DNA from: Candidatus Baltobacteraceae bacterium
GTDB taxonomy: Bacteria; Vulcanimicrobiota; Vulcanimicrobiia; Vulcanimicrobiales; Vulcanimicrobiaceae
Length of the DNA: 64,000 bases
Direction of reading: 5' to 3'
Assembly: GCA_036489885.1 (NCBI GenBank)
Contig: DASXEW010000003.1
Span: 496,001-560,000 of the forward strand
In this document: positions 52,933-62,761 of the stretch, piece after piece
How positions within the stretch are numbered: the first letter of the stretch is position 1
Layout: each line of letters opens with the position of its first letter
Position numbers and translations under genes: made by a program
The notes under the pieces: generated by a model
The model's database searches: none
The model's input: only the letters and a program-made list of their open reading frames with translations
What the model was told of the DNA's origin: nothing

Positions 52933-54110
52933 TGCTCGTTCGGCTGGCGCCGATTCTCGGAATCACGTTCATCGATATCCTCGGCTTCTCGATCCTCATT
53001 CCACTGCTGCCGTATTTCGTGAAGCACTTCGGCGTCGGCGACGTCGTCGTCGGCTTTCTCTTCACTGCCTTTGCGCTGACGCAATTCATCGGCAGTCCGC
53101 TTTGGGGCAATCTCAGCGACCGCATCGGACGCAAGAAGGTGTTGATCATCAGCCAGGTCGGCGCGGCAATCGGTTGGGGAATGCTCGGATGGGCGCCGAC
53201 GATCATCTGGGTCTTTGTCGCGCGCATCGTCGAGGGAATCTCCGGCGGGAACATCAGCGTCACGAAAGCTTACGTCGCCGATCTCGTCGAGCCGGAAAAA
53301 CGTGGGCGCGCTTTTGGCTATATCGGGGCAACTTTTAGCGGCGGGCTGATTTTTGGCCCGGCAATCGGCGGATTTCTCGTCGACCGCTATGGATTCTCGG
53401 CACCGTTTTACGCAGCGGCCGCATTGCAGATCGTGACGCTGATCGCGACGATCATCTTTTTACCGGAGTCGCTATCAAAAACTGAAGAGACGACGCCGGC
53501 TACGTTCCCCGAGATCGTGCGCTCGCTGAAGGATCCGCGCGTCGCGCCGGTCTTGGTTCAAGATTTGTTCAACTCGATGGGCCTCTACGGGTGGTTCAGC
53601 GTGTTCGCATTGATTGTCGGCGCACAACTCCACTTCGGCCCCGGCGACACCTCGCGGATGTTCTCCGTCTTCGGCGTGTTCAGCGTCATCATGCAAATCT
53701 TCGTCGTCGGCCGGCTCACCGACACGCTCGGCAACCGTATGATGTCCAACGCCGGATTCGCCTCGTTGATCATCGCATTCGGCTTCGCGCCGTTCATGCA
53801 CAATTTGTGGGGAGCCGCGCTACTGGTTGCGACCTTCTCGTTCGGTATGTCGCATGTCAATGCGACGATTCCGGCACTCCTCACCGAGGGCGCACCGGCA
53901 AACATGCGCGGAACGATCCTGGGCAGCGCGGCATCGCTCGAAGCCTCAGCGGGCATCTTCATGCCGCCGATCTCGACGGGCGTGCTCGGGACCGTCGGAA
54001 CCGCCGGGCCTGCTGCGATCTCGGCGTCGTTCGTCGCGATAGCACTTGCGCTCGGGATTCGAGCGCAACTCGCAGCGACACCCATTGCCAACGCAACGCG
54101 CGCGGAGTGA
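52932..54110 (+). CDS. MFS transporter (TCR/Tet-like)
   Basis: A 392-residue, 12-helix exporter in the TetA/TCR group: GSPLWGNLSDRIGRKKVLIISQVGAAIGWGMLGWAP holds the loop 2-3 signature, ARIVEGISGGNISVTKAYVADLVEPEKRGRAFGYIGATFSGGLIFGPAIGGFL contains helices 4-5 with motif C. A GTG start shares the PrpD-like stop region. The substrate is unknown. Confidence 0.9.
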   Translation: MLVRLAPILGITFIDILGFSILIPLLPYFVKHFGVGDVVVGFLFTAFALTQFIGSPLWGNLSDRIGRKKVLIISQVGAAIGWGMLGWAPTIIWVFVARIVEGISGGNISVTKAYVADLVEPEKRGRAFGYIGATFSGGLIFGPAIGGFLVDRYGFSAPFYAAAALQIVTLIATIIFLPESLSKTEETTPATFPEIVRSLKDPRVAPVLVQDLFNSMGLYGWFSVFALIVGAQLHFGPGDTSRMFSVFGVFSVIMQIFVVGRLTDTLGNRMMSNAGFASLIIAFGFAPFMHNLWGAALLVATFSFGMSHVNATIPALLTEGAPANMRGTILGSAASLEASAGIFMPPISTGVLGTVGTAGPAAISASFVAIALALGIRAQLAATPIANATRAE

Positions 54111-54113
54111 ACG

Positions 54114-54830
54114 GTGTTGGCCGGCTCTATGCAGCACCGCGTTTCTGAGCTCGATTGGAGCGAGCTCGAGCGAGCGCTTTTCACCGACGGGTACATCCTC
54201 GTGCCGGACGTCATCGACGCATCTACATGCAACGACGTGGCCGCCATGTATACGAGCGACGATCTCTTTCGCAGCCGGGTGCACATGGAAGCACATGGAT
54301 TCGGACGCGGACAGTATCGCTATTTCCGGTATCCGCTACCGGAACTGATTCAATCGCTGCGAGAGGAGCTGTACACGCGCCTCGCGCCGATCGCAAATCG
54401 ATGGATGGCAGCGTTAAAGTTGCCGGACCGCTTTCCGGATTCGCAGCAAGCGCTCTTCGATTTGTGCGCTGCTCGCGGCCAGACGCGTCCGACGGCTCTC
54501 TTGCTCGCGTACGAAACGGGCGATTGGAACGCGCTGCACCAAGATCTATATGGCGAGATCGCGTTCCCGTTTCAGGCAACGGTCTTCCTTAGCCGTCCGG
54601 GCAAAGATTTCACGGGCGGTGAGTCCGTCCTCGTCGAGCAACGTCCGCGCTTACAGTCGCGTCCCGAGGTGATCGTCCCCGAGCTGGGCTCGATGTTAAT
54701 CTTCGCGAATCGCTATCGGCCCGTTCAGGGGAAGAATGGCACGTACCGCACAATCGTGCGGCACGGCGTCAGCCGGATCAGGAGCGGGCGCAGATACGCT
54801 CTCGGAATCATTTTTCACGACGCAGAGTAA
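54114..54830 (+). CDS. 2-oxoglutarate/Fe(II)-dependent oxygenase
   Basis: A 238-residue jelly-roll oxygenase. The iron triad is HxD...H: NALHQDLYGEIAFPFQ supplies His and Asp, and RTIVRHGVSRIRSGRRYALGIIFHD supplies the distal His with the 2OG-binding Arg close by. ERALFTDGYILVPDVID at the start is typical of prolyl-hydroxylase and PhyH-like relatives. The substrate cannot be inferred. Fifteen bases separate it from the VOC gene. Confidence 0.85.
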   Translation: MLAGSMQHRVSELDWSELERALFTDGYILVPDVIDASTCNDVAAMYTSDDLFRSRVHMEAHGFGRGQYRYFRYPLPELIQSLREELYTRLAPIANRWMAALKLPDRFPDSQQALFDLCAARGQTRPTALLLAYETGDWNALHQDLYGEIAFPFQATVFLSRPGKDFTGGESVLVEQRPRLQSRPEVIVPELGSMLIFANRYRPVQGKNGTYRTIVRHGVSRIRSGRRYALGIIFHDAE

Positions 54831-54844
54831 GGGAGTCCATACGA

Positions 54845-55249
54845 ATGAAGCTGGTGCCGTACGTTTTCTTCTACGGACGCTGCGAAGAAGCGCTCGAGTT
54901 CTACAAGACCGTGCTCGGCGGCGACTACGAGCTCTCCAAGAACGACGAAGGGCCGATGGCCGATCAAGTTACGCCTGATTTCAAAGGTAAGGCGATGCAC
55001 GCGACGTTTACCTCGGGCGATCTGACATTCATGGCCTCCGACGGGATGGGCGGCAAAACCATCGATCCGGAAGCCGGTAACATAACGCTGTGCATCGAGG
55101 CCGACGGTCGCACCGACGGCGAGCGTATCTTCGAATCACTTTCGGCCGGAGGCAAGGTTAAAATGCCGTTCGCAGACGCGTTTTGGGGCGGCCGTTTCGG
55201 CGCGTTCGACGACCGTTTCGGGATCGAGTGGTATGTAACGTCGCCCTAG
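54845..55249 (+). CDS. VOC family protein (PhnB-like)
   Basis: A 134-residue protein of the PhnB/3-demethylubiquinone-methyltransferase-like VOC group: LVPYVFFYGRCEEALEFYKTVLGGDYEL, MHATFTSGDLTFMASDGM and GAFDDRFGIEWYVTSP are family blocks. The metal ligands are only partly conserved, as usual for PhnB-like proteins. It is likely co-transcribed with the oxygenase gene. Confidence 0.9.
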   Translation: MKLVPYVFFYGRCEEALEFYKTVLGGDYELSKNDEGPMADQVTPDFKGKAMHATFTSGDLTFMASDGMGGKTIDPEAGNITLCIEADGRTDGERIFESLSAGGKVKMPFADAFWGGRFGAFDDRFGIEWYVTSP

Positions 55250-55321
55250 CCGGCGATGCAACGCGATGGCCTCGGCTCGTGTTTCCTACGCATTCAACCC
55301 GTCCACACAAGGAACACCCCG

Positions 55322-55456
55322 ATGGTCAACCTTCTCGATGTTGCGATTTTCGTGACTTTTATCGTGATCTTACTCCAACTAGCACGTCCAGGATCCCCGC
55401 GCACGCAAGACGTCCAAGTCTGGACTGACGACGTCGAACGCCGCATGCTCCGCTAA
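55322..55456 (+). CDS. 44-residue membrane peptide upstream of the ECF sigma gene
   Basis: An ATG at 55322 with AAGGA seven bases before it opens a 44-codon frame. The product has one hydrophobic helix (LLDVAIFVTFIVILLQLA) followed by a polar tail (TQDVQVWTDDVERRML). It ends two bases before the sigma-factor ATG, so the two are co-transcribed and probably translationally linked. In-frame sequence above 55322 is not coding-like. The role is unknown; a membrane tether for the sigma factor is a possibility. Confidence 0.6.
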   Translation: MVNLLDVAIFVTFIVILLQLARPGSPRTQDVQVWTDDVERRMLR

Positions 55457-55458
55457 CG

Positions 55459-56061
55459 ATGACGGCTGCGCTTTCGAGTTTCGAACCGGTAACCTCAGTC
55501 GACGAAGTCGGCGAGTTGCTTGCTCACGCGCTCGCCGACGACGTCGACCTGGCGTTCGAACAAGTCGTGCGCACGTATCAGGATCGCATCGTGAGCGTCG
55601 CGGCCCGTGCGCTCGGCGACCGTCAGCGCGCGGAAGAGCTCGCGCAAGACGTCTTCGTTCGCGCGTACCGCGCGCTGCGGACATACGATCGTCCGCGAAT
55701 TCGCAAGCTACGTTTACGTTCGTGGTTATATGCGATCACACTCAATCTCATTCGTAACGCGGTTCGCGGTAAACGCTTGCGCACCGTCGGGCTCGAACGC
55801 GACGACGGCAGTCCACGGCCGATCGCCGATCCGAAGCCGACTCCGGAATCCCAAGCCGAGATTCGTGAGGATTGGCAATACATCGGAGGCGCGGTCGCGC
55901 AACTCTCGCCGAAGCTGCGTGACGCCTTCGTGTTGCGCTATGTGGAAGAACTTTCATACGACGAGATCGCGGATGCGCTCTCGCAACCCGTCGGAACGGT
56001 CAAGGCGAACGCGCATCGCGGGCTGATGAGCGTCCGCGCTTTCCTGGAGGAACAATCATGA
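55459..56061 (+). CDS. ECF-type sigma-70 factor
   Basis: A 200-residue extracytoplasmic-function sigma factor. Region 2 is FEQVVRTYQDRIVSVAARALGDRQRAEELAQDVFVRAYRAL, including the -10 recognition helix, and region 4 is LSPKLRDAFVLRYVEELSYDEIADALSQPVGTVKANAHRGL, with the -35 helix-turn-helix. No C-terminal extension is present. Its TGA overlaps the ATG of the alkyltransferase gene (ATGA), so no separate anti-sigma gene follows; the protein in the normal anti-sigma position is the alkyltransferase. Confidence 0.95.
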   Translation: MTAALSSFEPVTSVDEVGELLAHALADDVDLAFEQVVRTYQDRIVSVAARALGDRQRAEELAQDVFVRAYRALRTYDRPRIRKLRLRSWLYAITLNLIRNAVRGKRLRTVGLERDDGSPRPIADPKPTPESQAEIREDWQYIGGAVAQLSPKLRDAFVLRYVEELSYDEIADALSQPVGTVKANAHRGLMSVRAFLEEQS

Positions 56062-56840
56062 CGGAACGTCTTCGTCAGTGTCTCGACGACTTTCGCGCGA
56101 ACACGCAGTGCACGGCATCGCCTGAGTTTACATCGGCGACACTCGACCGGCTGGGACTCGCGGATCGTTACACGACCCTCGAAAGCGTAATCGGTCCCGT
56201 GTACGTTGCTTGGAATCCGCGCGGGGTCTCCGCCGTTCGACAGGCCGATGGTACGGAGGCCTTCGAACGCTGGTTCCGCAAGCGCTTCACGCGCCGCGCG
56301 CTCCCGGCTGAAAACATTCCGTCGATCGTTGAGGATGTGCGGCGCGCGCTCGCCGGTGAAGACGTGAAGCTCGACATCGACTTGCGTGACTGCACGCCTT
56401 TCGAAGCAGCCGTCTTGCACAAAGCGCAAGAGATTCCGAGCGGCCATGCCCGTCCGTATGCGTGGGTCGCACGCGAGCTGGATAATCCGCGCGCAGTGCG
56501 TGCCGTCGGCAGTGCACTCGCGAACAATCCTGTGCCGCTCTTGATTCCTTGCCATCGCGTCGTGCGCAGTGACTACGCTACGGGCGAATACGTTTTCGGC
56601 TCCGCAAAGAAACGGGAATTGCTCGAACACGAGGGCTTGCACGTGCATGAAATCGAGGAGCTCGCGAAGCGCGGGATTCGCTACATCGGTCAACCGCAAG
56701 ACAATTGCTTCTGCTTGCCGACCTGCGGACCGGATTTGATCGCGGATCACAATCCGGAACATGTCGAGCTGCACAGCGTTGATGAGGCGTTGGCAATGGG
56801 TCTCGAACCGTGCGCGACATGCCGTCCGATTGCGGCCTAG
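56058..56840 (+). CDS. O6-alkylguanine alkyltransferase with C-terminal Ada zinc domain
   Basis: A 260-residue protein in three parts. Residues 1-37 form an extra N-terminal segment of unknown role. Residues about 38-195 are MGMT/Ogt: RPYAWVARELDNPRAVRAVG and LIPCHRVV, with the suicide acceptor Cys165. Residues about 208-258 match the Ada zinc-binding domain: CFCLPTC (Cys219 and Cys223, the Cys38 and Cys42 equivalents) and EPCATCRP (Cys252, Cys255), so the methylphosphotriester acceptor is also present. E. coli Ada has the zinc domain first, then an AraC domain, then MGMT; here the order is reversed and the AraC domain is missing. The gene is coupled to the ECF sigma gene by ATGA. Confidence 0.93.
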   Translation: MTERLRQCLDDFRANTQCTASPEFTSATLDRLGLADRYTTLESVIGPVYVAWNPRGVSAVRQADGTEAFERWFRKRFTRRALPAENIPSIVEDVRRALAGEDVKLDIDLRDCTPFEAAVLHKAQEIPSGHARPYAWVARELDNPRAVRAVGSALANNPVPLLIPCHRVVRSDYATGEYVFGSAKKRELLEHEGLHVHEIEELAKRGIRYIGQPQDNCFCLPTCGPDLIADHNPEHVELHSVDEALAMGLEPCATCRPIAA

Positions 56841-56913: not shown

Positions 56914-58692
56914 ATGCGCGCGTTACATATCGCTGGAGTTTTTCTCGTCGCTGGTTCGGTTTTCGCAGGGTGCGGCGGTGGCGGCTCGTCGGGCTCACAC
57001 GTTGGCGCCGGCAGCAACACGTCGAGCAAGCACGCGCAGTATACCGTAAAGGTTAAGATTCCGTCAGCATCAAGCAGCTCGGCGAGCGCGGTGCGACGCG
57101 CGAAATTCGTCTCACCATCAGTGCAGTCGATCGTCGTGCAAATCTTCGATGGTTCGACGCAGATCGTGCAAGGTACGAATTACGTCAACGTTACGGCGAC
57201 AACGGCGAACGGCGCGAGCGGCTGCACGACCGGCGCAGGCGGCGTGTTATGCACGGTTGTCGTCAACGCGTCCATCGCAACCGCGGGATCGTACACGATC
57301 GTCGTCGCGACGTATGATGCGCAGCAAACCGTTACGTGCGCGCCGGGCGGCTCTCCGGCGTGCTCGGGAAACTTGCTTTCGATTTCGAATCTGCCGCAGC
57401 AAGTCACGCCCGGCGATACGATCAGCCTAACGCTGGGCGGAATACCGTCATATCTCCAGCCGGTCGAGCTCGTTTCGGGATACATCTCAGCCAATAGCAG
57501 CGACATGGTCACGGTCTACGGTCCGGGACCACAAGCTATCTCCTTTGAGTTTCTCGATGCCGATCACAACGTGATCATCGGCGCCGGCGCACCAACCGTC
57601 ACGCCGGTGAACAATACCGCCGGCACATTGACGACAACAGTGACGACAAGCGGCGGTTCGGGCCTCTACACGCTGCAATTGGCGCCTGTGACGACAACCG
57701 TCGGCAGCTTGCAAGTCGTACAAGCCGGAACCGTTGCGCCTCAATTCTCCGTAACGATCCCCAACACGACCCTGTCCGCCACGATAACGTTCCCGATCAC
57801 GATCGCGCACAGCGAACTGTTCGTTTCGGCCAGCGTGCCGTCACCGCCGGGAACGACCTCAATTTACGTTTACTTCGACGGGAACACGACGCCGCAGTAC
57901 AACGTGTACAACACCGGTTATTCGCCGCTGAATCTCGCGACCGATATCAACGGAAACGTCTGGGGAGCCGATTACGGCAACAACAAGATCCTCGAATTCA
58001 GCGCGCAGCCGGCCTCGGCGCCCTCGGAAAATGATGCGGTCGGGACTCTTTCAGAGCCGTATTCGATCGGATTTGATTCGTCCAGAGACGCCTACGTCGG
58101 TAACGGCTCTCCGTTCGGCGTCGTCCAGTACAGCGCGCCGTCGCCGCAGAGCACACCGAACTTCACAACCAGCGCGTTCACCTACTCGTCGAATCCGAAT
58201 CTGGATCCACAAGGCATCGCCTTCAACAATAGCAACGGAACGCTCTACGTGAGCTACTACAACTATTCGACCACGCAATATTCCGTCGGTTCGTACCCAT
58301 CGGGTTCCAGCTCGTTAACGACACTCTACGGACCCGGCTCGACGGTAACCAACGGAGTCGCCATCGATCCATTGCACGGCGACATCTGGTTCGTGGCGGG
58401 AAGCCCGACCGTCGTGGAGATCAATCCCGCGGGGACGCAAGTCGGATCGATTTCGGGTTTCAGCTCAGCCGGTGTCGCAACCGATTCGCTCGGCAATGTT
58501 TTCGCAACGAACTCGAGCGGCGGTATTAAGGAATTCGCCGCGCCTTCGTTCTCCTCGCCGGTGACGATCGGGTCGGTGGTCGCGCCTCAGAGCGTCGCCG
58601 TCTACCCAAACGCACTCATCGGTTTTCAGAGTCCCGTTGGCGTTCTTCCCAACCCTACGCCTTCGCCGATTCCGATCCCGACGCCGACGTAG
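56914..58692 (+). CDS. NHL/SMP-30-type repeat lipoprotein
   Basis: A 592-residue exported protein with lipobox GSVFAGC and a Gly/Ser-rich linker. Residues about 45-330 are beta-rich Ig-like domains with a Ser/Thr bias. Residues about 335-570 contain repeats of the style LATDINGNVWGADYGNNKILEFS, IGFDSSRDAYVGNGSPFGVVQYS, GVAIDPLHGDIWFVAG, AGVATDSLGNVFATNSSGGIKEF, a beta-propeller of the NHL/SMP-30 kind. The end is a Pro-Thr-rich tail. Function unknown, probably surface display or binding. A CGGAGG Shine-Dalgarno precedes the ATG. It ends 37 bases inside the convergent membrane-protein gene. Confidence 0.8.
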   Translation: MRALHIAGVFLVAGSVFAGCGGGGSSGSHVGAGSNTSSKHAQYTVKVKIPSASSSSASAVRRAKFVSPSVQSIVVQIFDGSTQIVQGTNYVNVTATTANGASGCTTGAGGVLCTVVVNASIATAGSYTIVVATYDAQQTVTCAPGGSPACSGNLLSISNLPQQVTPGDTISLTLGGIPSYLQPVELVSGYISANSSDMVTVYGPGPQAISFEFLDADHNVIIGAGAPTVTPVNNTAGTLTTTVTTSGGSGLYTLQLAPVTTTVGSLQVVQAGTVAPQFSVTIPNTTLSATITFPITIAHSELFVSASVPSPPGTTSIYVYFDGNTTPQYNVYNTGYSPLNLATDINGNVWGADYGNNKILEFSAQPASAPSENDAVGTLSEPYSIGFDSSRDAYVGNGSPFGVVQYSAPSPQSTPNFTTSAFTYSSNPNLDPQGIAFNNSNGTLYVSYYNYSTTQYSVGSYPSGSSSLTTLYGPGSTVTNGVAIDPLHGDIWFVAGSPTVVEINPAGTQVGSISGFSSAGVATDSLGNVFATNSSGGIKEFAAPSFSSPVTIGSVVAPQSVAVYPNALIGFQSPVGVLPNPTPSPIPIPTPT

Positions 58693-59218: not shown

Positions 59219-60070
59219 CTACGCTGCCGAACGCTTGCGCGTTTTCTTGGCGCCGTTCTTCTTGCGTGCAATCGAGGCACCGCGGCCCTTTTTCGATTCC
59301 TCGATGCTGCGCTGCAGTACGTCCATGAGGTTGACGACGTTCGTTGCTTCGGGGGCTTTGGCGCGCGACGCGGGAATCGCCTTGCCCTTGGCGCGCGCTT
59401 CGACGAGCGCCAACAATTTCTCACGATACGTGTCCTCGAAGACTTCCGGCTTGAATTCCGAGGTCATCGTGTCGATCAGCAGTTTCGCGACCTTCATCTC
59501 AGTCGCCGGAACCTCGGCTTTGAGGGGAGGAAATGCGAAGTCCGATTGGTCGACGAGCTCCTCGTTGAAGTGCATCAGCTCGAGGACGAGGGCATCGCCG
59601 TTCGGCTTGACGGCCGCCAGATGCTCGCGATTGCGCAGCACGACTTTCGCGATGCCGACTTTGTTCGCGTCGCGCAGCGCATCGCGCAAGAGCGCGTAGG
59701 CGTGGCTTCCTTTCTTCTCCGGTTCGAGATAGTACGGCGTGTCGAAGAACATTGGGTTAATCTCGTCGAGATCGCAGAATTGCACGATGTCGACGGATTG
59801 CGTGTTCTCGGCGTCCAGACGCTTGAGCTCGTCATCACTGAACGTCACCCACTCGCCCTTTTCGTACTCGTAGCCGCGCACAATCTCGCTGCGGGGGACT
59901 TCTTTGTCTTCGCGTTCGCAAAACGTGCGATAGCGAATGCGCGAATCATCTTTCTTGTGGATGAAGTTGAAGCTAATATCGCTCGAGCGCGAGCGCACGG
60001 CGGTGAAGAGCTTCACCGGGATCGTGACGAGCCCGAAATTTATAGCGCCCGACCAAATTGCGTGTGCCAC
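59219..60070 (-). CDS. ku: Ku protein (NHEJ)
   Basis: A 283-residue bacterial Ku homodimer subunit, which rings DNA ends and recruits LigD. The N-terminus AHAIWSGAINFGLVTIPVKLFTAV and the FCDLDEINPMFFDTPYYLEPEKKGSHAYALLRDALRDANK block are characteristic. The C-terminal ~40 residues are lysine-rich (KGRGASIARKKNGAKKTRKRSA), the extension associated with DNA binding. It lies four bases downstream of the polymerase gene in a ligase-polymerase-Ku operon. Confidence 0.97.
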   Translation of the reverse strand: MAHAIWSGAINFGLVTIPVKLFTAVRSRSSDISFNFIHKKDDSRIRYRTFCEREDKEVPRSEIVRGYEYEKGEWVTFSDDELKRLDAENTQSVDIVQFCDLDEINPMFFDTPYYLEPEKKGSHAYALLRDALRDANKVGIAKVVLRNREHLAAVKPNGDALVLELMHFNEELVDQSDFAFPPLKAEVPATEMKVAKLLIDTMTSEFKPEVFEDTYREKLLALVEARAKGKAIPASRAKAPEATNVVNLMDVLQRSIEESKKGRGASIARKKNGAKKTRKRSAA

Positions 60071-60073
60071 CGT

Positions 60074-61027
60074 TTACCCCCAGAGCTTGCGTGCTTTTTG
60101 AAGCGCCCGTTCCAGGCGCTGTCCGCGCCATTGTCCCTTCCAGGCGTCGCCGTCTTTCCGGAGGAGCGCCGGCACCGTTTCGAGATTCCAACGTTCCCAT
60201 TCTTTTGATGGATCCGGGACGCGCTTCTTGCGAAGCTTCTCGACCTGCGGCCAAGTCAGCGGGAACGAGACCGGAGCCCCATCCCGTGCTCGCACCGCGA
60301 ACGGCGGCACCAGCGTCTTTCCCCGGCCGACCTGGACATAGTCGAGATAGACCGTACCGGAAGGACGTCTGCGCACCGACCTTTCGAGCGTTGTCGTCTC
60401 CGGGGCCTGTTCGTGGATGCGGCGTCCGAGCAGCTCCGAGAAACCCTTGATGATCTCGTAGTCATAGCGGGGTTCGAGCGGGACGATGACGTGCAGACCG
60501 CTACCGCCCGTCGTCTTTACCAGCGCCCGCAGGCCGATCGACTCGACGGTGTCGCGAAAGAGCAGCGCGACGCTGCACAGTGTAGCCAGCGTACAATCGT
60601 CGCCGCGATCGAGATCGACCAAGAGAAAATCCGGGTGATCGAGTTTGGGTTCGCGCGACGTCCAAACGTGCAGCGTGATCGCGGCGAGATTCGCAACGTA
60701 CGCAAGCGTCGCTTCATCGTTGCATAACATGAACTCGACCTTACCGGTGCGTCCGTACTCGGCTTGCACGTGGACGGTTGGAACCCAATCCGGAAGACCT
60801 TTGGGAATCTGCTTCTCCCACCATCCGGGCTTGTCAACGCCGTTCGGATAACGTTCGAGCGTCAGCGGTCGGCCTTTCGTGTACGGCAGAATATAGGGCG
60901 CGACCGCGCGATAGTACGCGATCAGCTGACCCTTCGTGATCTTGTCTTTTGGAAAGATCACTTTGTCCAGATTGGTAACCGCAAGCGTGCGGCCGTCGAC
61001 CGCGAGCGCGGTCTTGACGCTGGCTAT
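60074..61027 (-). CDS. ligD: LigD polymerase/primase (separate subunit), probable ATA start
   Basis: The NHEJ polymerase part of LigD, a primase-polymerase that fills gaps at broken ends. DFLLVDLDRGDD supplies the catalytic DxD, and LVKTTGGSGLHVIVPL and SGTVYLDYVQVGRGKTLVPPFAVRARDGAPVSFPLTW are hallmarks. The first canonical start is GTG at 60961, which cuts off VDGRTLAVTNLDKV, the family N-terminus. Upstream no ATG, GTG or TTG occurs, but ATA at complement 61025-61027 overlaps the ligase TAG (ATAG) and is preceded by GGAG seven bases away. The extended form has about 317 residues. In many bacteria this domain is part of one LigD chain; here it is its own gene. Confidence 0.93.
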   Translation of the reverse strand: MASVKTALAVDGRTLAVTNLDKVIFPKDKITKGQLIAYYRAVAPYILPYTKGRPLTLERYPNGVDKPGWWEKQIPKGLPDWVPTVHVQAEYGRTGKVEFMLCNDEATLAYVANLAAITLHVWTSREPKLDHPDFLLVDLDRGDDCTLATLCSVALLFRDTVESIGLRALVKTTGGSGLHVIVPLEPRYDYEIIKGFSELLGRRIHEQAPETTTLERSVRRRPSGTVYLDYVQVGRGKTLVPPFAVRARDGAPVSFPLTWPQVEKLRKKRVPDPSKEWERWNLETVPALLRKDGDAWKGQWRGQRLERALQKARKLWG

Positions 61028-62643
61028 GCGACCTCTCCGCGCGGAATCTCGGGCTCACGCACAACGGCCTTTGCATCTTTGTCTTCGCGCAAGCCCATGA
61101 ATGCAGGATGACGCAGACTCCCTTCATCCGTCCATTCCGTAAAGCGAACTTCGCAGAGGAGCTCCGGCGAAACCCAGTGCGCGGGTGCCGCGGATTTCGG
61201 CGGCGCCGTTGCAAACGGACACGTCTTTCGTTCGAGCTTCACCAAACGTTTGTGCAGCGACGCAAGCATCTTCGCATCGAATCCGGTCCCGACATGTCCG
61301 GCGTAGATCAGCTTCCCTTTTGCGTAATAGCCCACGATCAAGGCACCGAATCCTGAACGGCTGCCGCGCGGTTCGGTATATCCGCCGATCACGAACTCCT
61401 GACGCTTTTGCGTCTTGATCTTCAGCCACGTGCGCGTGCGGCGCCCCGATTCGTATTCCGAGTCGCGGCGCTTGGCCATGATGCCTTCGAGCCCGCGCTT
61501 CTCTGCAAGCGCAAAGAGCTTCTCGCCTTCGCCGATCACGTGCTTCGAATAGATTACGCGGTGTCCGTCGACGATCAAACCTTCGAGAATCTTCTTGCGC
61601 TCTTCGAGCGGAAGCGCGCGGAGGTCGCGTCCGTCGGCAAAGAGCACGTCGAAGGCCGCGTATGCGATCTCGCCCCCGCCCGCCGGCCGGCGCGGTCCAC
61701 GAATGCTTTCGATGCGATTTTGCAGTCGCTGAAATGACGCGCGGCCTTTGTCATCGAGCGCTACGATTTCACCGTCGACGATGATCGGCAGCGAGCGAAA
61801 TGCGTGTCCAATATCCTCAAGCTCGGGGAACTTACTCAAGAGATCCTTGGCGTTTCGCGACGTCAGTTTGACGGTGCCGTCCGCTTCGATCGTCGCCAAG
61901 GCGCGAAATCCGTCCCACTTGATCTCGAAGAGCCATTCGTCGTTGTCAAATGGCTCGTCGACCGCGGTCGCCAGCTGGATTCCGGATATTATGGGAAGTT
62001 TAACTGGCTTAAGAGGACGTTGTGACTTGCCTTTTTTAGGTGGACTTATCCACTTCTTCACAGAGGGGCTGTGAGCAATTTGCTCGATCGTTTTGTGGCT
62101 GATGACGCTTTTCGGCTGGTCGTCGACACTCCATTTTGGATCGACGTAACGATCTTTATCCTTGATCAGCAGCCACGGCTCGCCGCTTTCACCAGCGCGC
62201 GCACGTATTTTTACGAGCGTGAATTCGCCTTTGAGTTTGTGTCCGTGCAGGATGAATTTGATCTTGCCTTTTTTGATTTCTTTTGCGGGATCTTCGCCTT
62301 CCGCAAGCTCGTACGTCCCCTCGTCCCAAATAATGACGGGACCGGCGCCGTAATGTCCCTCCGGGATGATGCCTTCGAACTTGCGATATTCAAAGGGATG
62401 ATCCTCAACGTGCATCGCGAGACGCTTCTCGCCGATCTCGCGCGAGGGGCCCTTGGGAACCGCCCAGGATGCGAGCACGCCATTCGCTTCGAGACGGAAA
62501 TCGTAGTGCAAACGCGTCGCGTCGTGTTTCTGTATGACGAACACCAGCTTGCCGTGGCCCTTGCGAACCTTGCCGGCCGGCTCCGGCGTCGCCGTGAAAT
62601 CGCGCTTGCGGTTGTACTCCTTGAGCTGGGTGCTCTTGGGCAT
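61024..62643 (-). CDS. ligD: ATP-dependent DNA ligase with 3'-phosphoesterase domain (LigD type)
   Basis: A 539-residue NHEJ ligase. Residues about 20-165 are the 3'-phosphoesterase (FVIQKHDATRLHYDFRLEANGVLASWAVPKGPS, HVEDHPFEYRKFEGIIPEGHYGAGPVIIWDEG) with its His/Asp site. Residues about 225-520 are the ligase: FEIKWDGFRA carries the adenylated Lys, followed by DGEIVALDDKG, and the OB domain at the end. The ATG at 62643 starts MPKSTQLKEYNRKRDF; the frame above it is not family text. The gene is coupled to the polymerase gene (ATAG overlap). A 37-residue membrane peptide gene ends four bases upstream. Confidence 0.95.
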   Translation of the reverse strand: MPKSTQLKEYNRKRDFTATPEPAGKVRKGHGKLVFVIQKHDATRLHYDFRLEANGVLASWAVPKGPSREIGEKRLAMHVEDHPFEYRKFEGIIPEGHYGAGPVIIWDEGTYELAEGEDPAKEIKKGKIKFILHGHKLKGEFTLVKIRARAGESGEPWLLIKDKDRYVDPKWSVDDQPKSVISHKTIEQIAHSPSVKKWISPPKKGKSQRPLKPVKLPIISGIQLATAVDEPFDNDEWLFEIKWDGFRALATIEADGTVKLTSRNAKDLLSKFPELEDIGHAFRSLPIIVDGEIVALDDKGRASFQRLQNRIESIRGPRRPAGGGEIAYAAFDVLFADGRDLRALPLEERKKILEGLIVDGHRVIYSKHVIGEGEKLFALAEKRGLEGIMAKRRDSEYESGRRTRTWLKIKTQKRQEFVIGGYTEPRGSRSGFGALIVGYYAKGKLIYAGHVGTGFDAKMLASLHKRLVKLERKTCPFATAPPKSAAPAHWVSPELLCEVRFTEWTDEGSLRHPAFMGLREDKDAKAVVREPEIPRGEVA

Positions 62644-62647
62644 GGTC

Positions 62648-62761
62648 CTACTTACCCCACAAGGAGCCGTTGGAGTTCCACGGCTGCCAGACAAAGAGGC
62701 CGATCACGATGACGGCGATCGCGATCAGGACTGCCACATAGGCGGGACTGCGCTGTTGCAC
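62648..62761 (-). CDS. 37-residue single-pass membrane peptide
   Basis: A GTG at complement 62759-62761 opens 37 codons ending in TAG at 62648-62650, four bases before the ligase ATG. The product is MQQRSPA, one hydrophobic helix (YVAVLIAIAVIVIGLFVW) and a short polar end (QPWNSNGSLWGK). The frame has no stop for 15 codons above the GTG. The spacing to the ligase gene suggests translational coupling. It may be a true small protein or a leader peptide; the function is unknown. Confidence 0.5.
   Translation of the reverse strand: MQQRSPAYVAVLIAIAVIVIGLFVWQPWNSNGSLWGK

Follow-up and report, generated by a model that had tools for sequence, protein, structure and literature searches.

The Ada protein of E. 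coli carries both methyl acceptors in one polypeptide, couples repair to the induction of repair genes, and is autoregulated. Cada2 of Caulobacter is a methylation-dependent transcription factor with a C-terminal MGMT-type methyltransferase domain; it binds DNA (B-box, RLHD domains), and its regulon includes a 2OG dioxygenase and an Ada-like methyltransferase (PMC10957082). Among the cytoplasmic anti-sigma factors, the class I proteins (RsrA/ChrR type) bind sigma region 2 through their helix 4; CnrY, a class II protein with two helices, binds both sigma domains (PMC7406223). Group ECF122 of the Casas-Pastor classification is placed, in the passage of a 2022 review that deals with it, among the sigma factors that lack an anti-sigma and whose mechanism is unknown, and 6-O-methylguanine methyltransferases are named there as neighbors that might be involved (PMC8999054).

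The locus described here was found in a 64-kb stretch of DNA (the window). As the earlier note had reported, three plus-strand genes lie within 1.5 kb: (i) a 44-aa membrane peptide (55322..55456), (ii) a 200-aa ECF sigma factor (55459..56061), and (iii) a 260-aa MGMT-Ada_Zn alkyltransferase (56058..56840), which we propose as anti-sigma and sensor. The peptide and sigma genes are separated by 2 nt, and the sigma and alkyltransferase genes overlap by ATGA. The sigma factor matches Pfam Sigma70_r2 (E 7e-14) and Sigma70_r4_2 (E 5e-15), as well as TIGR02937, and belongs to the ECF type by having regions 2 and 4 only, without region 3. The sigmas paired with MGMT-Ada_Zn form one clade, inherited together with the alkyltransferase and separate from the other sigmas of the host genome.

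The alkyltransferase matches Pfam DNA_binding_1 (E 3e-26) and possesses the features of an O6-alkylguanine-DNA alkyltransferase: the PCHR active site (Cys165), the RAVG arginine finger, the Asn hinge, and the AGT fold. PCHR is kept in 87/87 non-redundant homologs, which were chosen for having the Zn cysteines. All four cysteines of the zinc site are present in the window protein (Cys219, Cys223, Cys252, and Cys255), the first of them being the predicted methyl acceptor, but the domain is C-terminal and its Ada_Zn_binding match is sub-threshold (E 0.0019, 18.6 bits against a cut-off of 23), whereas orthologs score strongly (55.8 bits in the Eremiobacterota operon L006); most of the basic residues of this site that are kept by relatives are lost in the window copy. 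Both predicted acceptors are retained in a reversed domain order, as the earlier note had read from the translation. An AraC domain was absent from the window protein in a Pfam search, and the protein is therefore not classed as Ada. Unlike in Ada, the output would pass through a dedicated sigma factor rather than an activator, and in contrast to Cada2 no DNA-binding regulator domain was found in the protein and a sigma partner is present.

In an AlphaFold2 model (mean pLDDT 93.7), two N-terminal helices (residues 3-16 and 24-31) precede the alkyltransferase fold and a zinc module similar to N-Ada; the model superimposes on the E. coli Ada C-domain (1sfe) with a TM of 0.83 by target. The segment of residues 1-34 (56058..56159, plus strand) is a candidate sigma-binding element. 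Its approximately 34 residues matched no anti-sigma family by sequence, and the class I domain Hx3CxxC is absent from the window protein; the two predicted helices recall CnrY and other class II anti-sigmas by analogy. Gene order and overlap are those of both anti-sigma classes, but sensing would be done by a suicide DNA-repair enzyme, where those proteins use a redox site or a membrane relay.

In its neighborhood the locus matches the description of ECF122, sharing an ECF sigma, a conserved 6-O-methylguanine DNA methyltransferase neighbor, and the lack of a linked anti-sigma; the Ada_Zn domain, promoter, regulon, and zinc-domain-MGMT fusion reported below are not given in the description of the group in PMC8999054. 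Among the open-access papers searched for ECF sigma factors with alkylation or alkyltransferases, no study of such a system was found, and none of these papers other than PMC8999054 mentions ECF122. The statement of the earlier note that no system of this type had been described thus needs qualification: the neighborhood pairing is already catalogued as ECF122 in that review. What appears to be new, among the open-access papers searched, is the occurrence of the Ada_Zn architecture beside a sigma, together with the promoter, the regulon, the fusion, and the mechanism proposed here.

To assess conservation of the gene pair, orthologs were searched by the alkyltransferase alone. They were found in 60 relatives, and every full-length ortholog with enough contig has a sigma gene directly upstream. 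A wide search covered one genome per species for 84,980 species, with the alkyltransferase alignment, blind to the sigma, as query (a single-sequence query against genome contigs gave no matches), and produced loci in Chloroflexota, Actinomycetota, Acidobacteriota, and Eremiobacterota. The sigma gene is immediately upstream in 85 of the 86 informative non-redundant loci, the only exception being the distant locus L139, and the -4 (ATGA) overlap is present in 63. The host genome encodes 13 sigma factors and three MGMT proteins, and two of these three MGMT genes lie directly 3' of an ECF sigma gene. Because the arrangement is kept across phyla and recurs within the host, the pairing is not due to chance. 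No sigma gene adjoins the seven Eremiobacterota MGMT genes that encode neither an Ada_Zn nor a zinc domain. A third conserved neighbor was not seen across clades, a clustering confounded by overlapping high-GC ORFs. Co-inheritance of the pair is thus supported by computation, and the possibility raised beforehand that MGMT-Ada_Zn genes occur mostly without a sigma did not materialize; a mere target gene of the sigma, however, would be expected to show conserved adjacency as well.

The earlier note had also suggested looking for a shared ECF promoter motif upstream of the operon and of repair genes, and such a motif was recovered. Bipartite words were counted upstream of the sigma genes clade by clade, with no preset consensus, and the same word pair, TGCAAC-N16-GTGTT, emerged in Streptosporangiales, Chloroflexota, Eremiobacterota, and Streptomyces. 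Of the 85 regions upstream of a sigma gene, 59 carry it; shuffled sequences give an expectation of 0.5, and it occurred in 3 of the 402 control windows. Several of the remaining regions contain close variants, and in three loci (L060, L066, and L074) another gene seems to head the operon and the site precedes that gene. A 16-nt spacer separates the two words in 119 of 130 sites. Potential start codons, ATG or GTG, are concentrated 6-10 nt after GTGTT. This clustering fits leaderless transcripts that begin at the start codon, and GTGTT is therefore assigned as the -10 element; judged from fixed spacing and start-codon clustering in the sequences, the motif is a -35/-10 promoter. Its position before its own operon and before other targets is that of an ECF promoter, with the paired sigma as the candidate factor recognizing it. 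Known ECF -35 words (GGAAC, and TGAAC with CGT) showed no clear enrichment upstream of these sigma genes.

The core GCAA of the -35 word coincides with the Ada/Cada2 B-box (PMC10957082), and sigma is reported to be essential for Ada-activated transcription in E. coli, with an Ada-sigma interaction cited in a review (PMC4437013). Hence, the alkyltransferase might act as a positive co-factor: once methylated, it would contact the sigma or the promoter DNA and stimulate transcription, in the way that methylated Ada works with sigma-70. We consider this reading improbable: the protein lacks the AraC domain, which is the B-box-reading part, spacing and leaderless starts mark a -35/-10 promoter rather than an upstream activator site, and the gene occupies the position of an anti-sigma gene. 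On the same spacing and start positions, identification of the motif as an Ada B-box was rejected.

The window contains only two sites. One, TGCAAC-N16-GTGTT at 55257..55283 (plus strand), is the candidate ECF-type promoter of the sigma operon and the only exact motif copy in the host genome. The other, CGCAAC-N16-GTGTT at 54092..54118 (plus strand), is located 10 nt 5' of the probable start codon of an Oxygenase-NA family 2OG-Fe(II) oxygenase (54129..54830, plus strand; PF09859, E 3e-76), for which GTG 54114 is an alternative open start. One-mismatch sites elsewhere in the host genome occur at chance level (21 versus 25 in the control), so we claim only the two window sites. A VOC/glyoxalase-like gene (54845..55249, plus strand; PF06983 / PF00903) follows the oxygenase gene after 14 nt and, given this spacing, is probably co-transcribed with it.

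Comparison of sites across genomes revealed the likely content of the regulon. PF09859 proteins are described in Pfam as acting on damaged DNA, and the window oxygenase is a probable regulon member, since a site also precedes a PF09859 oxygenase gene in Pseudonocardia (L125 and L205), Actinomadura (L223), and Eremiobacterota (L060); in L065, L130, and L136 this gene is directly 3' of the alkyltransferase gene. A second O6-methylguanine methyltransferase gene is preceded by a site in three Actinomadura genomes (L237, L246, and L247) and in Thermomicrobiales L074, where it is divergent from the sigma operon. In 20 actinobacterial genomes, approximately 84 strict sites were counted, compared with 5 for the reversed pattern. 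From these sequence comparisons the regulon is well supported as a prediction. Further recurrent targets, in Actinomycetota, encode SDR proteins, EamA transporters, and SnoaL proteins and have no evident link to alkylation. The same SDR oxidoreductase gene lies directly behind the promoter in seven Nonomuraea genomes (L206-L209, L240, L244, and L245). Streptomyces relatives (L191, L222, L195, L219, L198, L220, L200, and L215) have 7-13 sites each; some of these sites are shared between species although no reading frame is obvious downstream, and may represent small RNAs or misread sites.

Since the regulon contains ordinary repair genes, finding one in the sigma operon is to be expected as well. 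The alkyltransferase could thus be a repair enzyme only, co-transcribed and controlled by a sigma factor that is itself set by expression level, proteolysis, or an unlinked anti-sigma. We regard such a passive role as unlikely. It leaves unexplained why the sigma clade goes with this MGMT architecture and no other, in 85/86 loci and with translational overlap, and why no unrelated repair enzyme was seen in its place; two further observations that it does not explain, the behavior of the N-terminus and the domain structure of a paralog, are presented below.

No zinc anti-sigma gene was detected near the sigmas paired with MGMT-Ada_Zn, and the same scan detects the anti-sigmas of neighboring unrelated sigmas. 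Nor was an orphan zinc anti-sigma gene found in the host genome, the separate partner that the earlier note had considered: its clearly scoring zf-HC2 genes each adjoin another sigma. The alkyltransferase therefore occupies the anti-sigma position.

The second sigma-linked MGMT gene of the host (L002; C1:379160-379885, minus strand, with its sigma at C1:380220) encodes a fusion of an N-terminal zinc domain (MRC...HLxxCxxCQ..Y) to an intact MGMT. An ECF sigma gene with an overlapping gene for such a fusion was found in 96 of 147 Eremiobacterota genomes, the host included. The paralog and its relatives contain the Hx3CxxC anti-sigma domain; the zinc domain matches anti-sigma models with E values of 2e-7 to 2e-3, and its best match among solved structures (PDB) is RsiW (E 0.013). 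In this feature the paralog resembles class I anti-sigmas of the RsrA/ChrR type. In a multiple alignment, the helix-4 region of the fusion (EPP..LVPKIL) is aligned with the short N-terminal stretch of proteins of the window family, where the motif [AS]P..[FL]...[TV]L corresponds to anti-sigma helix 4 of the paralog. The TGCAAC motif was found before 0/16 of the sigmas paired with the fusion, and no other clear motif was seen there either; the fusion thus belongs to a separate circuit and supports the anti-sigma idea by analogy only. In several loci, a PHP-domain-like gene is located 3' of the fusion gene.

Divergence of residues 1-34 tracks that of the sigma with a partial rho of 0.64, compared with 0.27 +/- 0.14 (maximum 0.51) for 40 control blocks of the alkyltransferase core; this covariation is suggestive only, as phylogeny and fast evolution can raise such values. 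The anti-sigma role gains support from these N-terminal helices and from the fusion behind another ECF sigma. A passive repair enzyme would account neither for an N-terminus that covaries with the sigma more strongly than other parts of the alkyltransferase nor for a paralog with an anti-sigma-like domain.

The membrane peptide (55322..55456) is real, too: 8 further operons of Eremiobacterota encode it at the corresponding place, after the promoter and before the sigma gene, with a VWNDE[AT]ERR[LM]L-like motif (VW[NTS]D..ERR[LM]L overall). In all, 9 operons carry it, and its charged C-terminal motif is near-invariant. Such constancy would suit a membrane anti-sigma in a system that reports envelope stress. 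This seems highly improbable to us: the peptide was seen only in Eremiobacterota, it was not found at the corresponding place in the Eremiobacterota operons L006 and L009, many actinobacterial loci have the promoter so close to the sigma that there is seemingly no room for it, and the pair, promoter, and regulon are all kept outside its range.

Taken together, we favor, with a probability of roughly 0.6, a self-contained alkylation-response switch in which the alkyltransferase holds the sigma factor and its own alkylation frees it; the pair appears to turn on itself and other alkylation-repair genes, the probable reason being that the repair protein keeps the sigma off until damage consumes it. 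We infer both sigma binding by the alkyltransferase and release on methylation. Points against the model include the shortness of the N-terminal segment, the divergence of the Ada_Zn domain in the window protein, and several Actinomycetota targets of no apparent relation to alkylation. The cycle would proceed as follows: (i) the sigma would read the TGCAAC-N16-GTGTT promoters of both its own operon and the alkylation-repair genes (Oxygenase-NA and, in relatives, a second Ogt), (ii) in an undamaged cell, co-made MGMT-Ada_Zn would hold the sigma via its N-terminal helices, (iii) the protein would irreversibly take up alkyl groups from DNA at one or both of its acceptor cysteines (PCHR, zinc site), (iv) the alkylated form would change in conformation, DNA-bound state, or stability and free the sigma, (v) freed sigma would produce more sigma, repair protein, and other repair products, with positive feedback through the shared promoter, and (vi) the response would shut off once fresh unmethylated protein again exceeds damage.

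A broader proposal, which we hold to be evenly balanced, is that a stoichiometric, suicidal repair protein serves as anti-sigma, so that one inhibitor is spent per alkyl transfer and the transcription machinery counts lesions, and that this evolved in two forms: as a two-helix N-terminus with MGMT and Ada_Zn in four phyla and as a zinc anti-sigma domain with MGMT in Eremiobacterota. If true, the switch would be a third alkylation-sensing architecture after the methylated transcription factors Ada and Cada2, acting via sigma release. Large groups of soil bacteria, among them Streptomyces and Nonomuraea, would possess it, and an ECF group so far listed as unknown would gain both a function and a mechanism. 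The promoter sequence, the candidate regulon, and the cysteine residues are now testable in cultivable strains.

Two further observations concern the surroundings of the operon. The gene at 56914-58692, 3' of the alkyltransferase gene, encodes a secreted lipoprotein-like protein with weak NHL/beta-propeller matches, which is probably unrelated to the sigma/alkyltransferase system. Approximately 2.4 kb from the alkyltransferase gene, at 59219-62694 on the minus strand, one Ku-like and two LigD-like genes (for the polymerase and ligase parts) lie in a row; from the look of the translations, they make up a bacterial end-joining cluster.
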